A stretch of DNA of 45,194 nt from Bacteroidia bacterium (GTDB lineage: Bacteria; Bacteroidota; Bacteroidia; AKYH767-A; OLB10): the NCBI GenBank assembly GCA_016788185.1, contig JAEUTF010000181.1, forward strand, positions 1-45,194, read 5' to 3'. A model generated the notes under the pieces. That model had not been told where the DNA came from, did not search any database, and was given only the letters and a program-made list of their open reading frames with translations. The position numbers and the translations under genes are program-made. This document shows positions 18,765 through 44,100 of this stretch, piece by piece. Position 1 is the first letter of the stretch, and the number at the start of each line of letters is the position of its first letter.

Positions 18765-19805
18765 CTATTTACTCTTCCTCAGCGAAAAAGTAAAAACGGT
18801 ACCCTGTCCGGGCTCACTGTTCACATGGATGTTCTCACCATGCGCCTCCATGATGTGCTTGACAATAGCCAGTCCCAAGCCAGTCCCCCCCTGCTCTCTG
18901 GAACGGCTTTTGTCCACACGATAAAAACGTTCAAACAACCTGGGCAGATGCAGCTTTGATATGCCGATGCCATTGTCCGCGACATCCACAATGACCTTAT
19001 CTTCATCCTCGGTAAAACGAACCTCCGTCAGTCCTCCGGCATTACCATATTTTACGGAGTTCACAAGGAGATTGACCAACACCTGACGGACCATATCCTT
19101 GTCGGCATAGACATAGATCGGTTTATCGGGAGAAGCAGAGACCTCCAGTTTAATATTTTTTTCCTTTGCCTGGAATTCCAGCGATTCCACCACATCCCGG
19201 ACAAGTTCACCAAGGTCAAACGTTCTGTATTCTACAATCAATTCTCCGGCTTCCAGACGTGATATCGATTCAAGGTCATCGACAATGCTGATCAGTCGGT
19301 CGATGGATTTGCTGGCCTTGTTCAGATAATGCAGATTGACATCGGGATCATCGATGCCACCGTCAATGAGGGTGTGTATATACCCCTGAACAGAAAATAT
19401 CGGTGTCTTTAGCTCATGTGAAACGTTGCTCAGAAAGTCGCGCCGGTAATTCTCCACCTGTTTCAGGTGATCAATCTCCTCTTTTGACTCATTGCTCCAG
19501 TCAATCAGAATACTGTTTATCTGGGTGGTAATGTCACTGCTGCTTTTGTCTGGCGGACGAACAACGTTTTTGGGATTCCGCAAACGGAGAATGTGTTTGT
19601 AAATCTGGTTCAGGTTCTCATAAATGAACCGGCCATATAAAAAACGAAGCGCCATGCCGAACACGGCAAAAGAAAAAACAAAAAACAACAGATGGACATA
19701 CCAGACGAGCCGGTAACCGGAAATCGCCAGGAATACCGAAACGGCGGCGGTTAATACCACCGCCAGAACAATTGAAGCAATCAGTCCAACCTGTTTGGCG
19801 TTCAC
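18765..19805 (-). CDS. phoR: PhoR-like sensor histidine kinase
   Basis: This 346-residue inner-membrane kinase has two N-terminal transmembrane helices (about 8-28 and 34-54) with almost no loop between them. A linker leads to the HisKA H-box FLSNVSHELKTP (phospho-acceptor His130) and an HATPase domain with N-box NLLVNSVKYG, G1 DNGIGIS and G2 GGTGLGLAIV. The lack of a periplasmic sensor domain fits PhoR-type kinases that read phosphate status through the Pst transporter and PhoU, both encoded nearby. The start is GTG. It lies 153 nt downstream of the response regulator gene, so it may have its own promoter as well as readthrough. The kinase call is firm; the name rests on the phosphate locus. 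Confidence 0.87.
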   Translation of the reverse strand: MNAKQVGLIASIVLAVVLTAAVSVFLAISGYRLVWYVHLLFFVFSFAVFGMALRFLYGRFIYENLNQIYKHILRLRNPKNVVRPPDKSSSDITTQINSILIDWSNESKEEIDHLKQVENYRRDFLSNVSHELKTPIFSVQGYIHTLIDGGIDDPDVNLHYLNKASKSIDRLISIVDDLESISRLEAGELIVEYRTFDLGELVRDVVESLEFQAKEKNIKLEVSASPDKPIYVYADKDMVRQVLVNLLVNSVKYGNAGGLTEVRFTEDEDKVIVDVADNGIGISKLHLPRLFERFYRVDKSRSREQGGTGLGLAIVKHIMEAHGENIHVNSEPGQGTVFTFSLRKSK

Positions 19806-19958: not shown

Positions 19959-20645
19959 TCAGATATCGAACTTGTAACCAATCCCCTTAATGGTCTTGAT
20001 GGACTCATCGCCCAGCTTTTCGCGAATTTTACGGATGTGCACATCGATAGTGCGGTCGCCGACCACGATGTCGTTTCCCCAGACTCTTGAAAGAATATCT
20101 TCCCTGGTAAAAACCTTGCCCGGTTTAGAGGTAAGCAAGGCCAGTAATTCAAATTCCTTGCGGGGGAAGGAAAGGGCCTTTTCATTCTTATAGACGAGGT
20201 AGCTTTCCCGGTCAATGCGCAGATCGCCAATCTGAATAACAGGTATCTGCGTGGCGGGCGCACCGTTTACCCTGCGCAGGAGCGCTTTGATCCGGCTGGT
20301 CAGCACCCGGGGCTTGATGGGCTTGGAGATGTAATCATCGGCACCGACATCAAAGCCGGCAATCTGAGAGTAATCTTCATTGCGGGCCGTAAGAAAAGCG
20401 ACCAGGGTATGTTGCAACTCGGGCACCTCCCGAATGTGACGGCAGGCTTCAATTCCATCCATCACCGGCATCATGATATCCAGAATGATCAAATGCGGGC
20501 GCTCCTTCCTGGCCATTTCCACCGCCTCTTTTCCGTTCTTCGCAAGAAACACCTCGTACCCTTCCTTTTTCAGGTTATACTCCATGAACTCAAGGATATC
20601 CGGTTCATCGTCCACCAGCAGTATTTTAACAGATTCGCTATTCAT
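19959..20645 (-). CDS. phoB: PhoB-like response regulator (OmpR/PhoB family)
   Basis: The 228-residue regulator has a receiver domain with acidic pocket Asp12/Asp13, phospho-acceptor Asp56 in LIILDIMMPVMDG, the switch Thr in FLTARNED and the conserved Lys in YISKPIKP. A winged-helix DNA-binding domain follows (about 130-228), containing FELLALLTSKPGKVFTREDIL and DVHIRKIREKLG. Proteins of this type bind tandem direct repeats with an 11-bp period, and such repeats lie upstream of this gene and of three other transcription units in the locus, so it probably controls itself and them. It is divergent from the TonB receptor, with 255 nt of shared regulatory DNA, and precedes the kinase gene. Confidence 0.9.
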   Translation of the reverse strand: MNSESVKILLVDDEPDILEFMEYNLKKEGYEVFLAKNGKEAVEMARKERPHLIILDIMMPVMDGIEACRHIREVPELQHTLVAFLTARNEDYSQIAGFDVGADDYISKPIKPRVLTSRIKALLRRVNGAPATQIPVIQIGDLRIDRESYLVYKNEKALSFPRKEFELLALLTSKPGKVFTREDILSRVWGNDIVVGDRTIDVHIRKIREKLGDESIKTIKGIGYKFDI

Positions 20646-20662
20646 ACCTTATATTACGGTCT

Positions 20663-20708
20663 CAAAGGTCTTCTTAAGCTGTTATGAAATTGTTAAGTCA
20701 GGATTAAG
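20663..20708 (-). promoter_or_regulatory. Pho-box-like repeats and -7 element upstream of the phoB-like gene
   Basis: On the minus strand three 7-mers lie exactly 11 bp apart: CTTAATC (20708-20702), CTTAACA (20697-20691) and CATAACA (20686-20680). A one-mismatch -7 element, GACCTTTG (20670-20663), follows 9 nt later and 17 nt before the ATG. The arrangement predicts autoregulation. Confidence 0.6.
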
Positions 20709-20824
20709 CCATCCCTATCATTCTTTACAAAGTTCCTGAATGTAATTTACATTCCTAACTTTGAAGTAACATTTAATCCGCTTTGAAGCCCAAAAATTCG
20801 CTGATTATCATTTTTCGGGCCGCT

Positions 20825-20869
20825 CCTTAACATTTAAATAAAACTCCGGTAAACTTAGCGTTTCATTTG
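20825..20869 (+). promoter_or_regulatory. Pho-box-like repeats and -7 element upstream of the TonB receptor
   Basis: 7-mers at 11-bp steps: CTTAACA (20826), AATAAAA (20837), GGTAAAC (20848) and a weak CGTTTCA (20859). The last unit overlaps a one-mismatch -7 element TTCATTTG (20862-20869), 31 nt before the ATG. Further upstream, CTTTGAAG occurs twice, 22 bp apart (20759 and 20781), and TAAC twice, 11 bp apart (20756 and 20767). Confidence 0.55.
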
Positions 20870-20900
20870 AAGGTGTTCTTTGTTAAGGAATTTCTAAGCC

Positions 20901-23717
20901 ATGAAATCAACACTGACAATTATTATTACCGCCTGCCTGTCAATCATTTGCACAGTTACGGCATGGGCCCAGACCGGCGGCATTCGCGGAACGCTGAGCG
21001 ACAAAAACAACGGAGAGACCTTAATCGGCGCCACGGTGACCATTGAAAACACCAGCTTGGGCGCGGTTACGGACATTGACGGCAATTACCAGATTGAAAA
21101 CATCGCAGCGGGTACCTATGCAGTTAAACTCACCTATGTTGGCTACAAACAGGAAATCGTTCCGAACATCACGATCAAGGCCGGAGAAACCATCCGCCTT
21201 GATTTTAAAATGATCAGCAATACACAAACGTTGAAAGACGCCGAAGTGGTTTCGACCAGGATTACCAATACTGAAAACGCGATCCTGGCGGAAATGCGAA
21301 AATCAGAGCAAATCGTAAACGGAGTATCGGCCCAGCAGATTTCCAAAACACAGGACCGCAGCGCTTCTGATGTCATCCGACGTTTGCCTGGTGTCACCAT
21401 CATGGAAGATCGCTTTATCGTGGTCAGAGGACTCAGCGAACGTTACAATGCCGTATTGCTGAACGATGCCATGGCGCCGAGCGCCGAACCAGACAAGAAA
21501 GCCTTTTCCTTTGACATTATTCCCAGTTCCATGCTGGAGCGGGTGCTGATTTACAAAAGCGGAGCGCCGGAACTACCGGGAGAATTTGCAGGAGGCGTTG
21601 TTAAAGTATATACCAAAAATATTCCCGATGAAGATTTTATCAGCGCAGGCATGACCATCGGGGTACGCAGCAACACCACCTTTAATGACTTTAACCGTGC
21701 CTCGCTGAGTAACACCGACTGGTTGGGCATGGACAATGGCAGCAGGGACCTGCCCGGAGACTTCCCGGTTTCCGTTGCGGGACTGAATACCACCCAGCAG
21801 GTGGCCCTCGCCAAATTGCTTCCAAACACCTGGATTGCCCGCGAAAAATCAGCTCCGGTGGACCAACGCTTCAGTCTTGGTTTTGCCAAAAGCTTCAATT
21901 TCGGAAAAGTAAGGGCCTCCAACATCACCGGCATCAATTACAGCAACAGCTACGAAACCCGCGAGGCCGAAAACCTCAATTACAACCAATACGACATCGT
22001 CAACGAAGTCAGTGATACCATTTACAATTTCAACGACCATACCTCGCTCAACAAAGTATCGCTCGGCCTGCTCAGCAATTTCAGCTTTTTGTTCAACCCC
22101 GCCAATAAACTCGAGTTCAGAAACCTGTACAATCAATCCGGAACGAACGGCACCACGATCCGGACGGGTTATAATATTGAAGAAGGAAACGACGTAAAGA
22201 ATTACGCCTTTCGGTATTATGAACGCAAAGTGTATTCAGGACAATTGTCGGGCAGCCATGACTTCAACCAGGAGAAAACAAAGTTTAACTGGACTGCCGG
22301 GTACAGCATGACGCACACCAACGAACCGGATTACAGAAGGATCCGGACGTTCAGAAGCTTAGTCGACAATTTACCGGAATATTATGTTCAGGTTAACAGT
22401 ACGGCTTCACAAGCGGATGCAGGGAGGTTTTATTCAACACTTGACGAGAACAGTTACATGGCCTCCGGAAATGTAGAGCAGGAAGTGAAACAACTTGGTG
22501 AAACAAGGAAGCTCAGGATCAGGGCAGGTTTTTACACCGAAAGCAAAAGCAGAACCTTCAATGCACGTTGGCTGGCTTACACCAAATCAAGGGTTGATAA
22601 GTTTGACAACTCCCTCCTCCAGCTTCCGCTCGACCAGGTATTCAGTTCAGAAAACTTCAATGACAGTACCGGATTTAAGATTGATGAGGGCACCAACGGA
22701 ACCGATCGTTACGAAGCGAACAACAGCCTCGCTGCGGCCTACATCGGTACGACCTGGCCACTCAGCGAAAAAATAATCCTCTCCGGCGGAGTTCGCTTTG
22801 AGTACAACCGCTTGATTCTGGAAAGCGCTGACAACAACGGAAAACCGCTGAAAGTAGACAATCCCATCAGCAGTTTACTGCCTTCGGCCAACGTCAGCTA
22901 CAGTCTTACTCCGAAGTCAATGGTAAGAGCAGCCTATGCCAAAACCCTGAACCGGCCCGAATTCCGTGAAATTGCTCCTTTCGCTTACTATGATTTCGTG
23001 TTTAACAATGTGCTGTTCGGCAACCCGGAACTCGAAACACCTGTGATCAATAATTTCGATCTGCGTTGGGAAAATTATCCTGCAGCAGGTGAACTGATCT
23101 CATTGGGTGTTTTTTATAAACAGTTCAGCAATCCGGTGGAGCAGTACTTTAAACCGGGAGCCGGATCGGGCGGAACCAGGAATTTCGAGTTTAAAAATGC
23201 TGCCGGCGCCTACAGCACCGGTGCAGAAATTGAACTTAGAAAATCACTTGAACCGGTTTTCAAGGCGGGTTTCCTGAGTCGCCTGTCCATCGGCATGAAT
23301 GCTTCTTACATACTAAGCCGGGTGGATCTCGGAAAAGAGGCGATCGGCCAGGACAAAAACCGTATCATGATGGGTCAATCGCTCTATGTGGTAAACACAG
23401 GACTGTATTACAATCAACCTGAACACAAGCTGCAATGCAATGTTCAATACAATGTGATTGGTAAGCGCCTGTTTGCGGTAGGTACCGAAGGCACACCCGA
23501 CGTATATGAATTGCCCCGTCATGTCGTTGACTTCTCCGTGACCAAAGGAATCGGTAAGAACTTTGAAATAAAAGCCGGTGTACAGGACATCCTGAATCAG
23601 GCTACCATCCTTCGCCAGGATTCCAATGAAGACGGAAAAATCACCAATAACGATGAATTAATCTACAGTTTTAAACGTGGCTCGTATTACACACTGGGAT
23701 TCACGGTACGATATTGA
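20901..23717 (+). CDS. TonB-dependent outer-membrane receptor, likely phosphate-starvation induced
   Basis: The 938-residue protein begins with a signal peptide (about 1-24, cut after WAQ). A carboxypeptidase-regulatory-like domain follows (about 27-110: GGIRGTLSDKNNGETLIGA, DIDGNYQIENIAAGTY). Next come a plug domain (about 125-240: SASDVIRRLPGVTIMEDRFI, VVRGLSERYNAVLLND) and a long beta-barrel ending in YYTLGFTVRY with the terminal aromatic residue needed for barrel insertion. It lacks the extra features of SusC and no SusD gene follows. It sits between the PhoB/PhoR-like pair and pstSCAB-phoU, has Pho-box-like repeats in its promoter and is followed by a co-regulated lipoprotein. I infer uptake of phosphate or a phosphorus compound; the ligand is not shown by the sequence. 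Confidence 0.88.
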   Translation: MKSTLTIIITACLSIICTVTAWAQTGGIRGTLSDKNNGETLIGATVTIENTSLGAVTDIDGNYQIENIAAGTYAVKLTYVGYKQEIVPNITIKAGETIRLDFKMISNTQTLKDAEVVSTRITNTENAILAEMRKSEQIVNGVSAQQISKTQDRSASDVIRRLPGVTIMEDRFIVVRGLSERYNAVLLNDAMAPSAEPDKKAFSFDIIPSSMLERVLIYKSGAPELPGEFAGGVVKVYTKNIPDEDFISAGMTIGVRSNTTFNDFNRASLSNTDWLGMDNGSRDLPGDFPVSVAGLNTTQQVALAKLLPNTWIAREKSAPVDQRFSLGFAKSFNFGKVRASNITGINYSNSYETREAENLNYNQYDIVNEVSDTIYNFNDHTSLNKVSLGLLSNFSFLFNPANKLEFRNLYNQSGTNGTTIRTGYNIEEGNDVKNYAFRYYERKVYSGQLSGSHDFNQEKTKFNWTAGYSMTHTNEPDYRRIRTFRSLVDNLPEYYVQVNSTASQADAGRFYSTLDENSYMASGNVEQEVKQLGETRKLRIRAGFYTESKSRTFNARWLAYTKSRVDKFDNSLLQLPLDQVFSSENFNDSTGFKIDEGTNGTDRYEANNSLAAAYIGTTWPLSEKIILSGGVRFEYNRLILESADNNGKPLKVDNPISSLLPSANVSYSLTPKSMVRAAYAKTLNRPEFREIAPFAYYDFVFNNVLFGNPELETPVINNFDLRWENYPAAGELISLGVFYKQFSNPVEQYFKPGAGSGGTRNFEFKNAAGAYSTGAEIELRKSLEPVFKAGFLSRLSIGMNASYILSRVDLGKEAIGQDKNRIMMGQSLYVVNTGLYYNQPEHKLQCNVQYNVIGKRLFAVGTEGTPDVYELPRHVVDFSVTKGIGKNFEIKAGVQDILNQATILRQDSNEDGKITNNDELIYSFKRGSYYTLGFTVRY

Positions 23718-23740
23718 TTTCACTTTGTGGCTTTGAAAGG

Positions 23741-23770
23741 AGACGGAGGAGGCATAGCCTCCTCTTCTCT
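23741..23770 (+). terminator. Rho-independent terminator after the TonB receptor gene
   Basis: GAGGAGGC and GCCTCCTC pair around a 3-nt ATA loop, followed by a T-rich stretch. It separates the receptor from the next gene, which then needs its own promoter. Confidence 0.7.
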
Positions 23771-23787
23771 TTTGGAGCCAGCCGGGA

Positions 23788-23844
23788 ATTAACATTTCCT
23801 TTAAACTGGATTAATACTACAGATACAGGTGAAGGGTAATATTG
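23788..23844 (+). promoter_or_regulatory. Pho-box-like repeats and -7 element upstream of the lipoprotein gene
   Basis: Three 7-mers in 11-bp phase: ATTAACA (23788), CTTTAAA (23799) and ATTAATA (23810). A one-mismatch -7 element, TAATATTG (23837-23844), follows 20 nt later and 32 nt before the ATG. Confidence 0.5.
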
Positions 23845-23876
23845 CAGCGGAACAAATAAAAAGACAAGAAATCAAC

Positions 23877-25262
23877 ATGAAAACATCCATCAGCTTAAGA
23901 AAGCTTAACACGGCCTTCCTGGTATCAATGGGATTGGTCGCAGCCTTATTCAGCTCCTGCAAAAAAGACGAAGAAGACAACACCACACCGTCCAACACCA
24001 TCAACTTTACATTGACTACGCTTGGCGACGGCACCATCCAGGTGGAAGGCAGCACCAATCAAAATACCCAGTTCGACAGCAGCAAAACCTATTTGTTAAA
24101 AGGATTTGTTTATGTAGAAGCCGGTGCGACACTGACCATTCAGCCGGGCACCATCATTAAAGGCGACAAAGCCTCGAAGGGAACGCTCATCATCAAACGC
24201 GGCGGAAAAATCAATGCCAACGGTAGCGCAGTGCATCCGATCATCTTCACGTCTTCCCAAGCCACAGGGTCCAGAAACCCCGGCGACTGGGGTGGCTTGA
24301 TTGTGTGCGGAAAAGCCCCCATCAACCTGCCTGGAGGAGAAGGACAAATTGAAGGAGGCCCCGACGCCCTTTACGGCGGTACGGATGCAGCCGACAATTC
24401 AGGAATCCTTAAATACGTCAGGATTGAATATGCCGGCATTCCCTTTCAGCCCAACCAGGAAATCAACGGACTTACTCTGGGTGGCGTAGGCCATGGTACT
24501 CAGATCGACTATATACAGGTCTCTTATTGCGGCGATGACTCCTATGAAATGTTCGGAGGCACGGTGAACCTGAAACACATCATCTCCTACAAAACCACCG
24601 ACGATGACCTGGACACCGACAACGGATACTCTGGTAAAGTTCAATTTGGTGTAGTACTTCGGGATGCTAACATTGCGGATGTATCGGGATCCAATGGATT
24701 TGAATCTGACAACGACGCAGCCGGATCGTCTCTGACACCTACCACCCGAGCCATCTTTTCGAACATCAGCGTTTTCGGACCCAAGCAAGACACCAGTTCA
24801 ACTGTGAACTCTAACTTTAAACGTGGCGCACACTTGCGACGTAATACGCAAACCTGCATCTACAACTCCCTGATTTCGGGTTATCCGGTTGGATTACTGG
24901 TGGATGGCACCGCCACAGAGGGCAATGCCACTGCGGATGTATTGCAGGTTAAAAATACCGTCGTTGCCTCTTGCAACACCCCACTTGCGGTTGCCAGTGG
25001 TTCGGGCTTTAACATCAGCAACTGGTTTAATACCACCACTTATGGCAATAGCATCCAATATACCAATACCGGACTCTCCAGCGACCCGTATGCCGCCACT
25101 CCGAATTTCCTTCCCCTTGCAGGATCAATTCTTCTGAGCGGCGCAGACTTTAGCAGTTCCAACCTCACTGGCCTGGATCCGGTCAACTTCCGTGGCGCTT
25201 TTGGATCCAGCGACTGGACTTCCGGCTGGGCCAACTGGGATCCGCAAAACACCAATTATTAA
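23877..25262 (+). CDS. Large surface or periplasmic lipoprotein paired with the TonB receptor
   Basis: The 461-residue product has a lipoprotein signal (lipobox LFSSC, Cys28) followed by an acidic KKDEED stretch. Acidic residues next to the lipid Cys in Bacteroidota often accompany surface export. The body looks like a right-handed beta-helix or similar solenoid: GFVYVEAGATLTIQPGTIIKG, GTLIIKRGGKINANGSA and AIFSNISVFGPK are spaced strand-turn repeats. It is rich in Asn, Asp and Gly and contains an acidic segment TTDDDLDTDNGYSG. It has no SusD-like TPR features. From memory, similar proteins stand beside TonB receptors in other Bacteroidota phosphate loci, but none has a defined role that I know of. 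The start at 23877 follows the promoter and signal peptide. A strong terminator follows. Confidence 0.7.
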   Translation: MKTSISLRKLNTAFLVSMGLVAALFSSCKKDEEDNTTPSNTINFTLTTLGDGTIQVEGSTNQNTQFDSSKTYLLKGFVYVEAGATLTIQPGTIIKGDKASKGTLIIKRGGKINANGSAVHPIIFTSSQATGSRNPGDWGGLIVCGKAPINLPGGEGQIEGGPDALYGGTDAADNSGILKYVRIEYAGIPFQPNQEINGLTLGGVGHGTQIDYIQVSYCGDDSYEMFGGTVNLKHIISYKTTDDDLDTDNGYSGKVQFGVVLRDANIADVSGSNGFESDNDAAGSSLTPTTRAIFSNISVFGPKQDTSSTVNSNFKRGAHLRRNTQTCIYNSLISGYPVGLLVDGTATEGNATADVLQVKNTVVASCNTPLAVASGSGFNISNWFNTTTYGNSIQYTNTGLSSDPYAATPNFLPLAGSILLSGADFSSSNLTGLDPVNFRGAFGSSDWTSGWANWDPQNTNY

Positions 25263-25281
25263 AAGAAGCCCCTTGTTTTTT

Positions 25282-25311
25282 AAAGCCCCTGCTGTGGCAG
25301 GGGCTTTTTTT
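25282..25311 (+). terminator. Rho-independent terminator before the pstS promoter
   Basis: An 11-bp stem, AAAGCCCCTGC with GCAGGGGCTTT, around a TGTG loop and followed by seven T. It ends 4 nt before the first Pho-box-like unit of pstS, insulating that promoter from upstream transcription. Confidence 0.92.
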
Positions 25312-25314
25312 GTG

Positions 25315-25371
25315 CTTAACAATTACTTAACACTAATGAAATAAGCAGGTAACATTTTCTTAATCTATTTG
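25315..25371 (+). promoter_or_regulatory. Pho-box-like repeat array of the pst operon
   Basis: Units on one 11-bp grid: CTTAACA (25315), CTTAACA (25326), a non-matching unit (25337), GGTAACA (25348) and CTTAATC (25359). The last overlaps a one-mismatch -7 element TCTATTTG (25364-25371). The start codon is 104 nt downstream, giving a leader of about 95-100 nt. This is the clearest array in the locus. Confidence 0.65.
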
Positions 25372-25475: not shown

Positions 25476-26441
25476 ATGAACAAGATCATCCTGGCCGTTG
25501 TCATCACCACCCTGGCAGCATGTGGCGGCAGCAAAGAAGAAAAAACACCTGAATCCGGCACTGAATCCTTGAGTGGCAACATCAGCATTGACGGTTCAAG
25601 TACCGTTTATCCCATATCGGAAGCCGTAGCTGAGGAATTCAGAAAGGAAGCGCCTTCTGTAAAGGTAACCGTAGGGCTTTCCGGAACCGGTGGCGGATTT
25701 AAAAAATTCTCCAGGGGCGAAATTGATATCAATGACGCTTCCCGAACCATCAAAGAAGAAGAAATGGCGCTTTGCAAGGAGCACAACATCGATTACATCG
25801 AACTTGAAGTCGGGTATGACGGCCTCGTGGTGGTCGTTCATCCGCAAAACAACTGGGTGAATGAAATTACGGTGGCAGAACTTAAAAAGATCTGGGAGCC
25901 GGAGGCACAAGGTAAAATCAAGTACTGGAATCAAATTCGTCCGGAGTGGCCCAAGGAAGAAATTCACCTTTACGGAGCCGGTGTGGAATCCGGAACCTAT
26001 GACTATTTCACCGAAGCCATTGTAGGTAAAAGCCATTCCAGCCGCGGAGATTACACCGGCAGTGAAGATGACAATGTACTGGTTCAGGGTGTTTCGGGCG
26101 ACAAAAATTCTCTGGGCTTTTTCGGACTGGCTTACTTTGAGGAAAACAAAGCCAAACTGAAGGCCGTGGCGGTGGATGACCAGAATGATGCTAATGGAAA
26201 GGGCGGTATTTTACCCAGTGTAGAAACCGTTCTCAATAAATCCTATGCGCCGCTATCCCGTCCGCTGTTCATTTATGTGAATTCCAAGGCGGTTCAGCGA
26301 CCTGAAGTCATCCGGTTTGTTGACTTTTACCTGGCTTCTGCACCGGAACTGACCAAAGCGGTGGGATTTGTACCACTGCGCCCGGAGGAGTATAAGGCAC
26401 AACAGGATAAATTCGCGCAATACCATTCGTCAAAAAAATAA
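25476..26441 (+). CDS. pstS: Phosphate-binding lipoprotein of the Pst transporter
   Basis: The 321-residue protein captures phosphate in the periplasm for the PstCAB permease. It has a lipoprotein signal (LAAC, Cys16) and an acidic/Ser-rich linker. The phosphate-loop signature [17 protein letters not shown] is at about 38-54, and the second-site motifs [24 protein letters not shown] and [13 protein letters not shown] are intact. The sequence groups with the larger Bacteroidota/cyanobacterial-type PstS. It is first in the pst operon, behind the Pho-box-like array, and is separated from pstC by 59 nt containing a hairpin. That hairpin may let pstS mRNA be more abundant than the rest. Confidence 0.95.
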
Positions 26442-26456
26442 ACAATTGCTACCGGC

Positions 26457-26491
26457 ATGAAGCCCGTCAAACTATCTTTGCCGGGCTTCAT
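26457..26491 (+). promoter_or_regulatory. Hairpin between pstS and pstC with a -7 box in its loop
   Basis: A perfect 10-bp stem, ATGAAGCCCG with CGGGCTTCAT, encloses a 15-nt loop that contains TATCTTTG (26473-26480), a perfect TAnnTTTG box. The box ends 20 nt before the pstC ATG, and a TTG at 26446-26448 lies 24 nt upstream of it. There is no T run, so it is not a normal terminator; it may cap the pstS transcript, and the box may give pstCAB-phoU a basal promoter. Confidence 0.5.
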
Positions 26492-26500
26492 TACCTGAAT

Positions 26501-27376
26501 ATGAAAATTCCGGAGAAATTTATTGTCGCCCTGCTGGCCTTGTGCGCCGGACTGACAATACTTGTAACGGCCGGAGTCCTTTACACGCTGGCTTCTGAAG
26601 CCATCCGTTTCTTCAGTGAAGTATCCATCGTTGATTTTTTTACCGATACACAGTGGACACCGCTTTTTACCGAAAAGCACTTTGGTATCTTGCCTCTTCT
26701 GAGCGGAACACTCCTGACTTCCTTCATTGCCATTTTTTTTGCATTGCCAATCGGGCTTACCATCGCCATTTATCTGAATGAATACGCTCCGCGCTCGTTT
26801 GCTTTCAGGATCAAACCGGTTCTGGAGATCCTGGCCGCGGTACCTACAGTGGTATACGGTTATTTTGCACTGACCGTAGTCACTCCATTTCTTCAGGGAT
26901 TTATTCCTTCACTCTCCGGTTTCAATGCGCTGGGTGCCGGCTTTGTGATGGGGATCATGATCATTCCATTGATTTCATCCATGAGCCAGGATGCCCTTTA
27001 TGCCGTACCGAAAGCCATGCGTGAAGCTTCCTATGGATTGGGGGCAACACGATTTCAAACCGCCTTCAGTGTTTTGTTGCCGGCGGCCTCCTCCGGCATC
27101 ATTGTATCCGTGATCCTGGCCATTTCCAGGGCGGTAGGAGAAACCATGATTGTGGCCATTGCCGCCGGCATGCAGCCGAGTCTCACGGCCAATCCCCTGG
27201 TGCCGGTTCAAACCATTACCACCTACATTGTTCAGATCAGCATGGGCGACGTTCCGCACGGATCGCTGGAGTACCGTACCATTTTTGCAGCAGGCATCAG
27301 TCTTTTTGTCCTAACCTTTGCGCTGAACAACATCTCCTTCTGGTTTAAAAAGAAATACCAGCAGAAATATGAATAG
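26501..27376 (+). CDS. pstC: Phosphate ABC transporter permease PstC
   Basis: This 291-residue inner-membrane protein has six predicted helices and forms the phosphate channel with PstA. The permease loop that contacts PstB is visible as DALYAVPKAMREASYGLGATRFQT (about 164-187), followed by the helix with ILAISRAVGETMIV. The order after pstS and the 8-nt overlap with pstA are typical for translationally coupled Pst genes. It may also be read from a promoter box 20 nt upstream, within the intergenic hairpin. Confidence 0.95.
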   Translation: MKIPEKFIVALLALCAGLTILVTAGVLYTLASEAIRFFSEVSIVDFFTDTQWTPLFTEKHFGILPLLSGTLLTSFIAIFFALPIGLTIAIYLNEYAPRSFAFRIKPVLEILAAVPTVVYGYFALTVVTPFLQGFIPSLSGFNALGAGFVMGIMIIPLISSMSQDALYAVPKAMREASYGLGATRFQTAFSVLLPAASSGIIVSVILAISRAVGETMIVAIAAGMQPSLTANPLVPVQTITTYIVQISMGDVPHGSLEYRTIFAAGISLFVLTFALNNISFWFKKKYQQKYE

Positions 27377-28226
27377 AATCCAAACCAACCGGATAAAGGA
27401 CAAGGCATTCCAGTATTTCGGAGTGTTCTGTACGTTTTTTGGTTTGGCCATGCTGGCGGTGTTCGTGCTGGATGTGTTGAGAAAAGGCATCCACCGCATC
27501 GACTGGGATTTCATCAGCAATCTCCCCTCCCGTTTTCCTGAAAAAGCAGGGATCTTTACGGCTCTGATGGGCACCTGCTGGATTTTGATTCTGACGGCCA
27601 TCATCGCCATACCCATCGGAGTGGCGGCAGGTATTTATCTTGAAGAATATGGCAAGAGAAACCGCTTTGCCGCGATTCTTGAAATCAACATTACCAACCT
27701 CGCGGGAATTCCTTCTATCATTTACGGCTTGCTGGGTCTTGAAATTTTTGTGCGGATTGCAGGATTGGGCCAAAGTGTACTGGCCGGAGCCCTGACCTTG
27801 TCACTTTTGGTTTTGCCCATCATTATTGTTTCGACCCGGGAATCCATTCGGGCTGTGCCACGCAGTCTGCGGGAGGCCTCGCTGGCCTTAGGTGCCAGCA
27901 AGTGGCAAACCATATGGAACCAGGTATTGCCGGCCGGCGGTGGCGGTATCCTCACCGGGGTGATACTGGCCTTGTCGCGCGCCGTCGGGGAGGCCGCACC
28001 GCTCATTGTAGTGGGTGCACTGGCTTATGTTCCCTTTGCCCCTTCCACACCCTTGGACGAATTTTCTGTATTGCCCATTCAGATATACAACTGGGTTTCC
28101 AGGCCACAACAAGGCTTTGTCACCAACTCGGCCGCCGCCATCATCATTCTCCTCATCGTTACCTTCCTGATGAATGGGATCGCAATTTATTTCAGAAGCC
28201 GCTGGCAGAAAAAAGTAAAATGGTAA
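27369..28226 (+). CDS. pstA: Phosphate ABC transporter permease PstA
   Basis: The 285-residue permease pairs with PstC. Six helices are predicted, and the coupling loop reads ESIRAVPRSLREASLALGASKWQT (about 157-180), followed by ALSRAVGEAAPLIVVGA, which is diagnostic for PstA. The start overlaps the pstC end by 8 nt, indicating translational coupling. The C-terminus ends in a basic stretch, RSRWQKKVKW. pstB begins 20 nt downstream. Confidence 0.95.
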   Translation: MNRIQTNRIKDKAFQYFGVFCTFFGLAMLAVFVLDVLRKGIHRIDWDFISNLPSRFPEKAGIFTALMGTCWILILTAIIAIPIGVAAGIYLEEYGKRNRFAAILEINITNLAGIPSIIYGLLGLEIFVRIAGLGQSVLAGALTLSLLVLPIIIVSTRESIRAVPRSLREASLALGASKWQTIWNQVLPAGGGGILTGVILALSRAVGEAAPLIVVGALAYVPFAPSTPLDEFSVLPIQIYNWVSRPQQGFVTNSAAAIIILLIVTFLMNGIAIYFRSRWQKKVKW

Positions 28227-28246
28227 TCCGTGAATATTAGAAAAAA

Positions 28247-29002
28247 ATGAGCCAGAAACTCGAAGCGAAAAATGTAAATGTGTTTTACGATCAGACGCAC
28301 GTCATTAAAAACGTGAACCTGTCGGTAAAAGCCAATTCTGTGGCCGCCTTCATCGGCCCATCCGGATGCGGCAAGTCCACTTTTCTTCGCCTTTACAACC
28401 GCATGAACGATCTCATTGAAGGTTTTCGCAAAGAAGGCGAAGTGTTGCTGGATGGAAAGGACATTTATGCCAAAGACCTGCGTGTGGAAGACCTGCGGAA
28501 AAAAGTGGGAATGGTCTTTCAAAAACCCAATCCCTTTCCAAAAAGTATTTACGAAAACGTGATATACGGGTTGAGGATCCGCGGCGTCAACAACAAAAAA
28601 CTTTTGGATGAAACGGTGGAACGTTCACTCCGTCAGGCTGCTTTGTGGGAAGAAGTCAAAGACAACCTCAAAAAATCAGCACTGGCCTTATCTGGAGGAC
28701 AACAGCAACGCCTTTGTATCGCCAGGGCCATCGCTACGGAACCTTCTGTATTGCTGATGGACGAACCGGCTTCAGCCCTCGACCCCATCTCCTCTTCAAA
28801 AATCGAGGAGCTGATTTACGAACTGAAGACACAGTATACGATTATCATTGTTACGCACAACATGCAGCAGGCCGGACGCGTTAGCGATACCACGGCCTTC
28901 TTCTACCTTGGCGAACTGGTGGAATACGATACCACTAAAAAAATCTTTATGAATCCCAGCGACGTTCGGACCCAGGACTACATTACCGGGCGTTTCGGCT
29001 AA
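28247..29002 (+). CDS. pstB: Phosphate ABC transporter ATPase PstB
   Basis: The 251-residue ATPase drives PstCA. Walker [10 protein letters not shown] is at about 37-45, followed by the PstB-typical [12 protein letters not shown]. The Q-loop is [16 protein letters not shown], the signature [16 protein letters not shown] (about 147-162), Walker [13 protein letters not shown], and the H-loop VTHNMQQA. Length and motifs are standard. It is probably co-transcribed with pstSCA and phoU (40 nt to the next start). Confidence 0.97.
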
Positions 29003-29042
29003 GTCATGTGGAACCGTTTTCTTACCTTAAACTAAATAAATC

Positions 29043-29717
29043 ATGTCACACCTTGAAGTAGAAATAAAAAACCTGAAATCAGAGATGCTTGAAATGTTCC
29101 TGCTGGTAAAAAGTCAGCTGGAAAAATCCAAGGAATCTTTGGTCCGCCTCGACAAAGACCTCGCCCGCGAAGTGCTGGTCAACGAGAAAAGGGTGAACGG
29201 GTTTGAGTTAAAGCTTGACCGGGACTGTGAGAACATTATTGCCTTGTTCAACCCGGTGGCTATTGATCTTCGCTTTGTACTAGCCTGCATGAAAATCAAC
29301 TCCAATCTGGAACGGATCGGAGACATAGCCGAAGGCATCTGTCAGTTTGTGCTCAACATCAAACTGGAGCCGGAAAAAAAACTTCTTGAGGTTACCCGCA
29401 TGCTTGAAATGTACGATACCTCTATATTAATTCTTAAGGAAGTAACCGAAGCTTTTGACAAAGAAGATACAGGCCTCGCCCGGAGCGTTTTTAAGAAGGA
29501 TGAAATCCTGGATGAGATCAACCTGAATGCCAACCAGGCGGTTGCCGATTTTATCAGAAACAACCCTGACAGGATCAATCAGAGCCTGTACATGCTAAGC
29601 GCCATTCGCAAACTGGAGCGTGTCGGAGATCAGTGCAAGAACATAGCAGAGGAAATCATTTTTTACATTGAAGCAAAAGTGCTGAAACATAAATCAAAAG
29701 AACAAAAGCAGGAATAA
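29043..29717 (+). CDS. phoU: Phosphate signalling regulator PhoU
   Basis: The 224-residue helical protein consists of two three-helix PhoU repeats. Metal-site motifs are visible: FNPVAIDLRFVLACMKINSNLERIGDIAEGI (about 66-96) in the first repeat and LSAIRKLERVGDQCKNIAEEI (about 184-204) in the second. PhoU links Pst transport to PhoR, repressing the regulon when phosphate is plentiful, and limits uptake. It is the last gene of the pst operon. Weak dyad symmetry (about 29731-29762) lies between it and the convergent gene, but it is bulged and I do not call it a terminator. Confidence 0.95.
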   Translation: MSHLEVEIKNLKSEMLEMFLLVKSQLEKSKESLVRLDKDLAREVLVNEKRVNGFELKLDRDCENIIALFNPVAIDLRFVLACMKINSNLERIGDIAEGICQFVLNIKLEPEKKLLEVTRMLEMYDTSILILKEVTEAFDKEDTGLARSVFKKDEILDEINLNANQAVADFIRNNPDRINQSLYMLSAIRKLERVGDQCKNIAEEIIFYIEAKVLKHKSKEQKQE

Positions 29718-38196: not shown

Positions 38197-41100
38197 ATGC
38201 AAACAATTTCTACTCTTTTAAAAGAGCAAAAACTCTTTCTGATTTTGCGAAGCAAAACAAGGAAAAACAGGTGCATAACCGTGTTCTTAGCTCTGATCCT
38301 GTCTGTGACAACAGCCTTCGGACAGTCGACACAAACCTTTTCATCATCAGGAACCTGGATCGCACCGGCCGGTGTTACCTCCGTACAGGTAGAATGCTGG
38401 GGAGGAGGAGGACGTGGCGGCTCCACAGTTTTCAGCGGCAATGAAACCGGTGGTGGTGGTGGTGGTGCCTATGTAAAAAAGAACAGTGTTCCGGTGAATG
38501 CCGGTACCAGCTATACGGTCACCGTAGGTGCCGGAAGTTCTTCCAGTGGTGTTGCAGGAGGAGATTCATGGTTCAATACGAACACCACTGTGATGGCCAA
38601 GGGGGGCAGTACGGTGAATGACAACGGGACCTCTGGTGCATCCGGTGGCTCAGCAGCATCATCAATCGGTGATATAAAATTCAGCGGAGGAAATGGTGCC
38701 GCCGGCAGTAGCGGCAACTATGGCGGTGGAGGCGGCTCTTCGGCCGGCACAGCAGCTGCAGGGACCACTGCAACCAACTCAAACGGAGGAGCCGCTCCTA
38801 CAGGAGGAGGTAATGGCGGAAACGGGCGAAGCGGATCCAATGGAAACGGCTTACCGGGCAGTGTGCCTGGCGGAGGTGGAGGCGGTGTACGTTCAGGAAC
38901 GTTAGGATTGCAAACCGGTGGGGCAGGTGCAAACGGCAGGGTGCTCGTTACCTGGACTTGTCCGGTATATGCTCTTACCGGGACGTCTGTTTCCTCTGTG
39001 GTTTGCAGTGGAAGCGCTGCCATAATCAATCTTACCGGCAACGCATCCGAACTTCCTGCAGGAACCTATACGATTAGTTATAATTTGTCCGGGGCAAATA
39101 CTGCCAGCGGCATAACCAGCTCCCTGAATGTTACGGTGGCCGGTAGTGCATCCTTCTCGACCATTGCTTTAACAAATAGCGGTATCACTGACATAACCAT
39201 AACGAACCTGTCGTCCGGAAGCGGATCGGCTACCTGCAGCAATGCGATTTCCGCTTTCAATACTGCAGTTATATCGGTAAGTGCTGTCAGCGCCGGATCG
39301 ATCAGTGGTGCACAAACAACCTGTACAGGTGGTGATCCCGCCACCATCAACAATAACATTTTGGGTACTGGAAGTGGCACCATTACGTATTACTGGGAAA
39401 GCAGCACTTCAGGTCCAGCAGCAGGTTTTTCTCTGATACCAGGTGCCAATGCGGAATCATACGATCCACCAGGCGGTTTGAGTGTTACAACATGGTTCAG
39501 GCGGGTTGCCGTTTCAACCGATGGTTCCACCGTATGTGAGGCTCCATCCACGGCAGTGGCTGTTACCGTGAGCTCAACACAATTGCCGGTGGTTACTGCA
39601 CAGACAGCTTCTTCGGCGGTTTGCCAGGGATCAACAGTGAATTTAATTGCTTCAACCAATGCAAACTTTTCATCCACAGCAAATCCAAATCTGAATATTC
39701 CCGACAACAATTCGACAGGCGTAACATCAACGATTAATGCTACGGGTCTCCCAACCTCCCTTTCCGGCTGGCAGGTAAGAGTTACGGTAAATATCCCTCA
39801 TGCATGGACCAGCGACCTTGAAATTTATCTGGCCAGGCCTGGCGGCGGTTTTGGTGGCGGAAGCGGATCAAACCAGGTTGGCACCATCGCCGGTCAATCC
39901 ATTCGACTTTCTAATGACAATGGGGGTAGCGGCGATGGATACAACAACTGCACCTTCCGGGATGATGCCGCATCCAGTGTCACAACCCAATCCGGCAATG
40001 TAACGATATCAGGCAACTTCATTCCTGAAGAATTACTATCCACCCTATCCGGAAATCCAAATGGAAACTGGACGCTGCGAGTGACTGACGATGCCGGTGG
40101 AGATGTGGGCACATTAACATCATGGACACTTCAGATCATTTATCCGAATGGACTATCATTCTCCTGGAGCAGTTCCCCTTCCGGATTTACCTCTTCTGAT
40201 CAAAATCCTGTAAGCAATGCGGTTACAACCTCCACCGATTACACGGTAATCATGACCGATGCTTTAAGCGGATGTACACAATCTTCACTGGTGAGTGTAG
40301 GGGTTATTCCAAACCCCTCTCCTAAAGTAATCCCGGGGGATACTATCCTTTGCAACGGGTCCAATTACTTTTTACATGTGATCGATACCGGTGCTTACGC
40401 CGCTTCCTACCCTGTTGGTACTACCGTGGATTGGGTAAACATTATCAGCAATCAATCTCCGAACGATAGTCTGAACACCAATGGAAACGGTTCTTCATTC
40501 CAGGCCAAGGTGACACTCCCCTCTGGGTGTTTTGCATTTTCTCCTGTCCGGACCGTATTGTCAAAAGCTATCGTTCCGAATGAAACGATCACGCACGCCA
40601 GTTGCAATCTGAGTAACGGTAAAATAGTAGCCAACATGGTTCTTGGCACTGCTCCCTTCCGTTATGTATGGAAAGCCGGGTTGGTGGTCATCAGAGATAC
40701 CATTTCATTTTCTGCCTTGGATTCAATTTACGCCCTGGCTTCCGGAAGCTATACACTTGAGATTACGGACAACTACGGACTCAATCTGCCTTCAGAACCC
40801 AGTTGCTCCGGCGGTCCCTATGTTTTTGCAGTTAACAACGTGACTCCACCTTCTGTCTCATTAAATCTCACAAACATTTCATGTGCCGGCCAAAATGACG
40901 GAAGCATTACGGCAAACCCGGTTCAGGGAACCAGCCCTTACTCTTTCTTATGGAGCAATGGCGCCGTTAGCTCTGCCATCAACGGACTTACTCCCGGCGT
41001 TTACACCGTGACTGTTACAGATAACGATGGTTGCACAGCCACCGGACAGGGGACAATCATTGAACCAGGCCTTTTGAATCTCTTATTGACTTATGCGGAG

Positions 41101-44100
41101 CCATTGTGTACCGGCACCAGCACCGGAGTAGTAACCGTCAGTGTTGGAGGCGGAACCCCGCCCTTCACCTATGAATGGTTTGATCAGTCGCTGCAACCCA
41201 TAGGAACCAACAATGATAGTCTTTTCAATGTTCCATCAGGAACCTACCACGTCCTGGTGACAGATGCCAATGCCTGCAACACAAATACTTCGATCCTCGT
41301 TGAAGACCCTCCTCTGTTAACGGCAACCTGCTCAGCAGTCGATGCCACGTGTTCAGGTGGCAGTGATGGCGCCGGAAGCGTAATTGCCTTTGGTGGCCGC
41401 GGCTCATATTCCTTTCTTTGGAGTAACGGTGCGAACACCGCTTCACTTTCTTCCTTGTCAGCGGGCAGTTACACGGTAACCGTAACAGATGGTAACGGTT
41501 GTACCGTTCAATGCATCGCAACCGTCAGTGAGCCGGCTCCGGTTGGTGGTATAGTCATTGGAAACGATGTCAACTGCGCCAATGATCAAACCACTGTTAT
41601 CGTTACCGGTACAGGAGGGACTGCACCTTATTCCGGTGAAGGTTCTTTCGTTGTTGGAGTCGGAACCCATTATTTCCCGATCACGGATGTGAACGGGTGC
41701 AGTGGCACAGCTTCCATCACGATAAATAATCTGGACAACCTTGCTCCTGTTATTTCAAATTGTCCGTCTGACATCACGCAATGTGAAAGTATTGTCACAT
41801 GGAACGCACCGGTTGCAAGTGACAACTGCACACTCATAAGCTTTAGCTCCAACTACACACCTGGAACTGCATTCCCGGTTGGGACGACTCAGGTGGTGTA
41901 TACGGCAACTGACAATGCAGGCCTGATCAGCAATTGCATCTTCAATGTTACCATCCTACCAACACCTGTATGGTACGAGGACCTCGACCTTGACGGCTTT
42001 GGAAACCCTGTGGTATCAATTACCTCATGCAATCAGCCAGGTGGATATATTGCAGACAACTCAGATTGCGATGATACACAATTCCTCTATGCCGATGGCG
42101 ACCTTGATGGTTTCGGTGCCGGCGCTCCTGTAGCCTGTGGTGTTGCAACCAGCAACGACTGCAACGACAACGATGCCGCCGTCAATCCGGCTGCCGCTGA
42201 AGTCTGCAACGGTGTGGACGACGACTGTGACGGTACTGCCGACGACGGTCTTACCTTCCTTGATTATTATTCCGATGACGATTCTGATGGATTTGGTGAC
42301 GTGCTCCTGGGCAACTTCTGCCAGGCTCCCGCTTCCAGTTCCCTGCCAAATGGCGACTGCGACGATCTCAATGCCGCCGTCAACCCAGCTGCCGCTGAAG
42401 TCTGCAACGGGGTGGACGACGACTGTGACGGCACTGCCGATGATGGGCAAACCTTCCTCGATTATTATGTAGACGGTGACGGTGACGGCTTCGGTGACGG
42501 CGTGGCCACTTCTTCCTGCAACCCCATTGCCGGTTCCGTAACTGTAAACGGTGACTGCGACGACCTCAATGCCACCGTCAACCCGGCTGCCGCTGAAGTC
42601 TGCAACGGGGTGGACGACGACTGTGACGGCACTGCCGATGATGGGCAAACCTTCCTCGATTATTATGTAGACGGTGACGGTGACGGCTTCGGTGCCGGCG
42701 TGGCCACTTCTTCCTGCAACCCCATTGCTGGCTCCGTAACTGTCAACGGTGACTGCGACGATCTCAATGCCGCCGTCAACCCGGCTGCCGCTGAAGTCTG
42801 CAACGGGGTGGACGATGACTGTGACGGTACTGCCGACGACGGTCTTACCTTCCTTGATTATTATGTAGACGGTGACGGTGACGGCTTCGGTGACGGTGCA
42901 GCCACTTCTTCCTGCAACCCCATTGCCGGTTCCGTAACTGTAAACGGTGACTGCAACGACAACAATGCCGCCGTCAACCCGGCTGCCGCTGAAGTCTGCA
43001 ACGGGGTGGACGATGACTGCGACGGTACTGCCGACGACGGTCTCACCTTCCTTGATTACTATTCCGATGACGATTCTGATGGATTTGGCGACGTGCTCCT
43101 GGGCAACTTCTGCCAGGCTCCCGCTTCCAGTTCCCTGCAAAATGGCGACTGTGACGATCTCAATGCCGCGGTCAACCCGACTGCCGCTGAAGTCTGCAAC
43201 GGGGTGGACGATGATTGCGATGGCGCTATCGACGAAGGACTCATCTTCCTCGATTACTATTCCGATGACGATTCTGATGGTTTTGGTGACGTGCTCCTGG
43301 GCAACTTCTGCCAGGCTCCCACTTCCAGTTCCCTGCAAAATGGCGACTGCAACGATCTCAATGCCGCGGTGAACCCGGCTGCCACAGAAGTCTGCAACGG
43401 TGTGGACGATGATTGCGATGGCGCTATCGATGACGGTCTCACCTTCCTTGATTACTATTCCGATGACGATTCTGATGGTTTTGGTGACGTGCTCCTGGGC
43501 AACTTCTGCCAGGCTCCCGCTTCCAGTTCCCTGCAAAATGGCGACTGCGACGATCTCAATGCCGGCGTCAACCCGGCTGCCGCTGAAGTCTGCAACGGTA
43601 TGGACGACGACTGTGACGGTACTGCCGATGACGGTCTCACCTTCGTAACCTATTATGCGGACGCCGATGGCGACGGTTTCGGTAACAATGCCGTTTCTCA
43701 GTCTACCTGTAACGGTGCTCCGGCGGGATACATACTTAACAATTCAGATTGCGACGACACACAACTGCTCTATGCCGATGGCGACCTCGATGGTTTCGGT
43801 GCCGGCGCTCCTGTAGCCTGTGGTGTGGTAACCAGCAACGACTGCAACGACAACGATGCCGCCGTCAACCCGGCTGCCGCTGAAGTCTGCAACGGGGTGG
43901 ACGACGACTGTGACGGTACTGCCGATGACGGTCTCACCTTCATAACTTACTATGCGGACGCCGATGGCGACGGTTTCGGTAACAATGCCGTTTACCAATC
44001 TACCTGCAACGGCGCTCCGGCGGGATACATTCTTGACAATACAGATTGCGACGACACGCAACTCCTCTATGCCGATGGCGACCTCGATGGTTTCGGTGCC

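Follow-up and report, generated by a model that had tools for sequence, protein, structure and literature searches.

Positions 1 to 45,194 of contig JAEUTF010000181.1 of a Bacteroidia bacterium (assembly GCA_016788185.1), here called the window, carry a cluster of phosphate genes: a phoR-phoB-like pair on the minus strand and, divergent from it on the plus strand, genes for a TonB-dependent receptor and a lipoprotein followed by pstSCAB-phoU (Table 1). Direct reading of the sequence places at least three CTTAACA-like units, at exact 11-bp steps, in each of the phoB, receptor, lipoprotein and pstS promoters. Comparison of promoters and protein sequences suggests that these arrays are very probably the Pho box in its Bacteroidota version, to which the PhoB-like regulator encoded alongside would bind. 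They have the properties by which a Pho box is recognized: at least two tandem direct repeats with a period of 11 bp, a location ahead of genes for phosphate uptake and its regulators, and maintenance across relatives. An earlier inspection of the letters alone (the sequence-only reading) had proposed a Pho box at this locus, and the proposal has gained support, the four promoters ranking top among the sampled upstream regions of the genome and arrays being present in orthologous promoters of relatives and of Flavobacterium. Its underlying observation, CTTAACA-like 7-mers at 11-bp steps upstream of all four genes, is confirmed both by reading and by shuffle tests.

Tests against chance

The 7-bp unit matrix used in the shuffle and ranking tests was trained on relatives, with the window excluded. 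One member of the training set, the congener G002 (L062), has promoters homologous to those of the window, and the test is therefore out of sample, not phylogenetically independent; the distant test of the matrix is Flavobacterium, which is absent from training. With the window-free matrix the phoB, lipoprotein and pstS arrays outscore all 2000 dinucleotide shuffles, and the receptor array reaches p = 0.0015. Each of the four promoters is significant at a spacing of 11 only, among spacings of 8-15 bp. In a ranking of 212 upstream regions of the same genome (about 440 kb) they occupy ranks 1-4, with scores of 17-21.8, the next score being 9.4. The sequence-only reading had staked itself on matrix matches being commoner at phosphate genes than at random positions, and every other sampled upstream region does fall below the four promoters.

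In the 3.23-Mb genome, the sole copy of CTTAACA-N4-CTTAACA with no mismatch and the sole copy with one mismatch lie at pstS and phoB. A profile model that uses sequence only, likewise trained without the window, places its best four window matches at the four promoters. Over the whole genome and at E <= 10 this model gives five matches (150 of 433 candidates scored): phoB and pstS account for one each, the region ahead of a Porin_O_P gene for two, and that ahead of the gene for an unknown secreted protein for one. Two simpler searches, for the consensus with up to three mismatches and for the exact pattern of two units plus TTTG, were too unspecific, and a weighted matrix was needed. One match from the mismatch search, on contig 34, was judged to be due to chance; the surrounding genes are ribosomal-protein-like or encode methyltransferases, and none is a phosphate gene.

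Conservation and the unit consensus

Orthologous loci were obtained from thirteen relatives, and 26 upstream regions entered a count of periodicity. Pairs of TTAAY separated by exactly 11 bp occur 14 times, against 0.23 expected from shuffles; 7 pairs occur at 22 bp (0.22 expected) and 3 at 33 bp, and none at 9, 10, 12 or 13 bp. Between congeners the positions of the arrays stay in place while the spacer letters drift. The arrays recur in orthologous promoters of the relatives. Among distant pstS genes (about 33% protein identity), L051, L052, L053 and L056 have arrays and others do not. The unit fitted to these sequences is (G/C/A)TTAA(C/T)A, followed by a preference for T at positions 8 and 9. 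The unit of the sequence-only reading, CTTAACA plus four arbitrary bases, thus keeps its 11-bp step and loses part of the freedom of its spacer.

Register with the -7 box

The arrays are positioned in a fixed helical register with a TAnnTTTG (-7) box. To examine the register, the array alone was taken as anchor and every TTTG in the following 60 nt or so was listed. Counted from the start of a unit, the TAnnTTTG box begins in phase 5 modulo 11 at 15 of 16 TTTG sites for the window together with its relatives and at 18 of 23 for Flavobacterium; the latter count leaves aside the secreted-lipoprotein upstream regions of L181-L183. Many of the promoters counted are homologous, so that the count is not a probability; the phase does hold, however, for several types of gene and in different families. 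Measured from the third unit, the box is mostly 16 or 27 nt away, in Flavobacterium also 38 or 49 nt, and a distance of 5 nt is seen where the array extends further.

The array overlaps the stretch where a -33 element would lie, and its position is fixed relative to the core promoter, which is itself assigned by match to the consensus. Because phase 5 modulo 11 is held, the array takes the place of the -33 element and shifts by whole repeat steps only. Such movement fits what would be expected if an activator contacted RNA polymerase from a single side of the helix. The sequence-only reading had the units leading in most cases to a TAnnTTTG box, without describing the register, and boxes can be located at all four promoters; at the receptor, a box at 20862-20869 yields to the likelier one at 20875-20882, favoured by the register rule and by alignment with a congener.

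The phoBR locus of Flavobacterium

In F. johnsoniae, phoR, phoB, a TonB receptor and a lipoprotein lie together in the phoBR locus (Fjoh_0541-0549), and phosphate depletion raises the receptor Fjoh_0545, the lipoprotein Fjoh_0546 and phoB (Fjoh_0544) by log2 values of 8.0, 9.9 and 3.1 (PMC8115612). The terms 'motif', 'promoter' and 'pho box' were not found in the text of that study. Six Flavobacterium genomes, which come from close relatives of F. johnsoniae and do not include its type strain, were reached through the gliding protein SprA. In each there is a single strong match to PhoB (about 60% identity); its gene diverges from that of a TonB receptor, and a relative of the window's lipoprotein is encoded nearby. 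Arrays are present in all six loci at the promoters of the receptor, the lipoprotein and, beyond phoR, a Porin_O_P gene, with high scores at spacing 11 only. Among 220 upstream regions sampled from Flavobacterium sp. SLB02 and scored with the same matrix, the lipoprotein promoter of the phoBR locus ranks first and the receptor promoter second. In the Flavobacterium genomes examined, the 11.5 kb around phoB showed no pstSCAB, and a search for the PhoX family gave two weak matches only.

Further promoters of these genomes carry similar arrays. A secreted relative of the lipoprotein (L179-L184) has a three-unit array upstream of its start codon in all six genomes, with an extra TTAACA unit recognizable by eye and a perfect in-phase TAATTTTG box. 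In strain CI04, the top genome-wide match of the phosphate model lies upstream of a DUF47 (PhoU_div) gene (L161, 1480-1580); the DUF47 family is often paired with Pit phosphate transporters. A divergent promoter between dapF-like and HtrA-like genes (L284, L289, L290 and L291, at about position 1500) has kept a TTAA array with steps of about 11 bp, followed by TACTTTTG; another regulator of the OmpR family may bind this array. Between a response-regulator gene and a divergent gene for a sulfatase-family membrane protein (L277, L278 and L288, at about position 1500), a TTAAT-N6-TTAAT array with TAATTTTG is conserved in three Flavobacterium genomes.

A second locus

The Porin_O_P (phosphate-porin family) gene found by the profile model lies outside the window on contig 7 (C7), with two TTAACA arrays upstream (L157 1345-1600, L268). 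Orthologues are present in four relatives, and all five genomes with the gene have upstream arrays. In three congeners the opposite-strand reading scores higher because TTAA is palindromic; on the forward strand of the same three, two TTAA cores 11 bp apart and a TTTG at the expected register can be seen by eye. The gene on contig 7 is likely, to judge from these arrays, to be a further member of the regulon.

The locus, its probable regulator and a proposed mechanism

The PhoB-like protein combines a receiver with a winged-helix DNA-binding domain, and it is paired with a kinase and accompanied by a pst/phoU cluster, as is characteristic of PhoB response regulators. Its DNA-binding domain can be aligned to the structure of the E. 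coli PhoB effector domain (1gxp), and in this alignment the recognition helix is nearly identical to that of E. coli PhoB (VGDRTIDVHIRKIR vs VEDRTVDVHIRRLR).

Table 1. Genes, repeat arrays and -7 boxes of the phosphate locus (window coordinates).
Feature	Position	Strand	Details
PhoR-like sensor histidine kinase	18765..19805	-	Pfam HisKA + HATPase_c
PhoB-like response regulator, proposed binder of the arrays	19959..20645	-	Pfam Response_reg + Trans_reg_C
phoB -7 box	20663..20670	-	GACCTTTG; 16 nt from last unit start, phase 5 mod 11; distance equal in congeners L062 and L063
phoB promoter array	20680..20708	-	three units at 11-bp steps, CTTAATC-N4-CTTAACA-N4-CATAACA: CTTAATC 20708-20702; CTTAACA 20697-20691; CATAACA 20686-20680
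Receptor promoter array	20826..20854	+	three units: CTTAACA 20826; AATAAAA 20837; GGTAAAC 20848
Receptor fourth unit, weak	20859	+	CGTTTCA
Likely receptor -7 box	20875..20882	+	gttcTTTG; 27 nt from third unit; aligned with GTCCTTTG in congener
TonB-dependent receptor	20901..23717	+	Pfam; divergent from phoB
Lipoprotein promoter array	23788..23816	+	ATTAACA 23788; CTTTAAA 23799; ATTAATA 23810
Lipoprotein -7 box	23837..23844	+	TAATATTG; 27 nt from third unit
Lipoprotein	23877..25262	+	homology; relative of lipoprotein at Flavobacterium phoBR locus; Pfam search gave no match
pstS promoter array	25315..25365	+	five 11-bp positions, four good matches: CTTAACA 25315; CTTAACA 25326; TGAAATA 25337 (poor); GGTAACA 25348; CTTAATC 25359
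pstS -7 box	25364..25371	+	TCTATTTG; 5 nt from fifth unit start
pstS-pstC-pstA-pstB-phoU	25476..29717	+	

A mechanism can be proposed from these elements. At low phosphate, the PhoR-like kinase would phosphorylate the adjacent PhoB-like regulator, which would then bind head to tail on the tandem 11-bp units, of consensus (G/C/A)TTAA(C/T)A-TT plus two free bases. By analogy with structural work on PhoB, one protomer would occupy each unit, all on one face of the helix. PhoB on the array may contact the sigma factor of RNA polymerase and so turn transcription on. The regulon, as far as the arrays mark it, would comprise phoB itself, the divergent TonB receptor, the lipoprotein, pstSCAB-phoU and the Porin_O_P gene elsewhere in the genome, all presumably under phosphate control. 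A broader proposal is that arrays of PhoB type stand in for the -33 element throughout Bacteroidota and have to keep an exact 11-bp register with TAnnTTTG, their distance increasing by whole repeat steps only (5, 16, 27 or 38 nt), as a general rule of activation by the OmpR family on the unusual Bacteroidota promoter, and that the phosphate regulon includes dedicated outer-membrane receptors and lipoproteins; our judgement on it is evenly balanced.

Elsewhere in the window, an open frame of more than 2300 codons (38197-45192, plus strand) runs past the window end and encodes a secreted-looking product. Its end consists of long near-identical repeats of the type DCNDNDAAVNPAAAEVCNGVDDDCDG, with tandem DNA periods of 198-495 bp, which resemble MopE-like metal-binding repeats.

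Alternative interpretations

Several results weigh against the Pho-box interpretation. Allowing up to three mismatches, CTTAACA-N4-CTTAACA gives noise in the genome (141 matches vs 268 for the reversed control), and the exact pattern of two units plus box is in no excess across eleven genomes (22 vs 27 in the control). A clear array is absent from four of the thirteen pstS orthologue promoters (L067, L069, L071 and L073). The phoB arrays of Flavobacterium are weak, with scores of at most about 8, which fits the lower induction of phoB but could also mean that control is not direct. The strongest Flavobacterium array is that of the porin, yet the OprP gene at this position in F. johnsoniae is not induced on phosphate depletion (PMC8115612), and the two are thus in discordance. 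In SLB02, the region upstream of the phytase-linked receptor showed no forward array of good quality; the F. johnsoniae counterpart of this receptor is induced by phosphate depletion (PMC8115612). In the organism studied here, both binding and induction by phosphate starvation are what we infer. Finally, PhoB is probably not the sole regulator to use the repeat, and the 7+4 arrangement of TTAA type is probably common to other OmpR/PhoB-family regulators in Bacteroidota.

This last point bears on the suggestion that the arrays are a general Bacteroidota operator of the OmpR/PhoB family, bound in vivo mainly by another regulator, such as one of envelope stress, or by several including PhoB. TTAA arrays with steps of about 11 bp and a TTTG-type box do occur in Flavobacterium at the dapF/HtrA-protease divergent promoter (four genomes) and at response-regulator, sulfatase-family and histidine-kinase-like promoters. 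The TTTAACA core determined for a Riemerella anatipestifer regulator annotated as PhoP by DNA affinity purification sequencing (DAP-seq) is associated with 583 peaks, the targets are for the most part not genes of phosphate metabolism, and pstS rose when the PhoP system was deleted (PMC9603813, PMC5399024). Nevertheless, high-scoring sites in the genome of the window are almost confined to phosphate genes, the regulator gene lies within the locus and has its own array, and the Flavobacterium homologues of the locus genes are reported as induced by phosphate depletion only; we regard the suggestion as unlikely. The simplest reading is that several Bacteroidota OmpR/PhoB-family regulators have a TTAAC half-site and the 11-bp architecture in common, and that phosphate specificity therefore lies in the finer letters, the copy number and the regulator at hand. 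The suggestion of the sequence-only reading that the consensus, if real, defines a regulon is limited accordingly: the four promoters outrank all other sampled regions, and the consensus by itself is not enough to define the phosphate regulon, given a repeat that other regulators probably have too.

An array that served as a repressor site, or as an element of the 5' leader acting at the RNA level, would be no activator site at all. The last pstS unit overlaps the -7 box, which could permit occlusion of polymerase. The general geometry is nonetheless that of activation, with the array upstream of the -7 box in fixed helical register, the Flavobacterium homologues rise on phosphate depletion, and no Rfam family has a match in the window, which together make repression or RNA-level action very unlikely. 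Origin of the repeats by chance or from AT-rich intergenic composition might be suspected, the consensus being AT-rich and its loose matches no commoner than those of controls. This origin is refuted by the dinucleotide shuffles, the alternative spacings, the genome ranking, conservation and the -7 register, and its probability is close to nil.

Implications and comparison with known systems

Phosphate-starvation genes of Bacteroidota are known from expression work, for which no description of an operator was found. A Pho-box matrix with a spacing rule would allow phosphate regulons to be predicted across Bacteroidota of soil, water and gut. It also gives a testable geometry for the action of an activator on a TAnnTTTG promoter, and it would add a TonB receptor together with a lipoprotein to the genes that phosphate controls. 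No Pho box for phosphate genes of Bacteroidota was found in the literature, of which coverage was incomplete, so that its absence is unproven. The promoter register appears to be the newest element, although no literature search was aimed at the TAnnTTTG register.

Pho boxes made of tandem 11-bp units around a TTAAC core have a precedent in Bacillus. The PhoP box of B. subtilis consists of tandem TTAACA repeats; it thus has the core hexamer and tandem arrangement seen here and differs in phylum, promoter type and target set. Boxes of this kind are also known from cyanobacteria. The SphR Pho box (CTTAACCT, 8 + 3) has a nearly equal unit, an 11-bp period and three tandem copies, whereas its seventh base is C rather than A and its core promoter is another; the SphR set, so far as its description was covered, includes no TonB receptor or lipoprotein (PMC1906773). 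The E. coli Pho box consists of 11-bp direct repeats, CTGTCAT + 4, with seven conserved and four less conserved bases, upstream of pst/pho genes and about 10 bp from the -10 element (PMC4415409, PMC1906773). The period, the target genes and the near-identical recognition helix of PhoB are alike in the two systems. The E. coli unit is TGTCAT and its promoter has a sigma-70 -10 element, in contrast to TTAACA and TAnnTTTG here; the CTGTCAT half-site is not found, the unit being (G/C/A)TTAA(C/T)A.

Within Bacteroidota, a TTTAACA core is known from one pathogen: the OmpR-family regulator annotated as PhoP in R. anatipestifer yielded it by DAP-seq, and binding was confirmed by electrophoretic mobility shift assay (PMC9603813). 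That system differs in that the text describing it mentions neither direct repeats nor pst promoters and the link to phosphate is doubtful, the comparison being one of motif, not of regulator sequence (RAYM_RS09740). A likeness in gene content is seen in the phoBR locus of F. johnsoniae, where phoR, phoB, receptor and lipoprotein stand together, as in the window, and are induced on phosphate depletion (PMC8115612).

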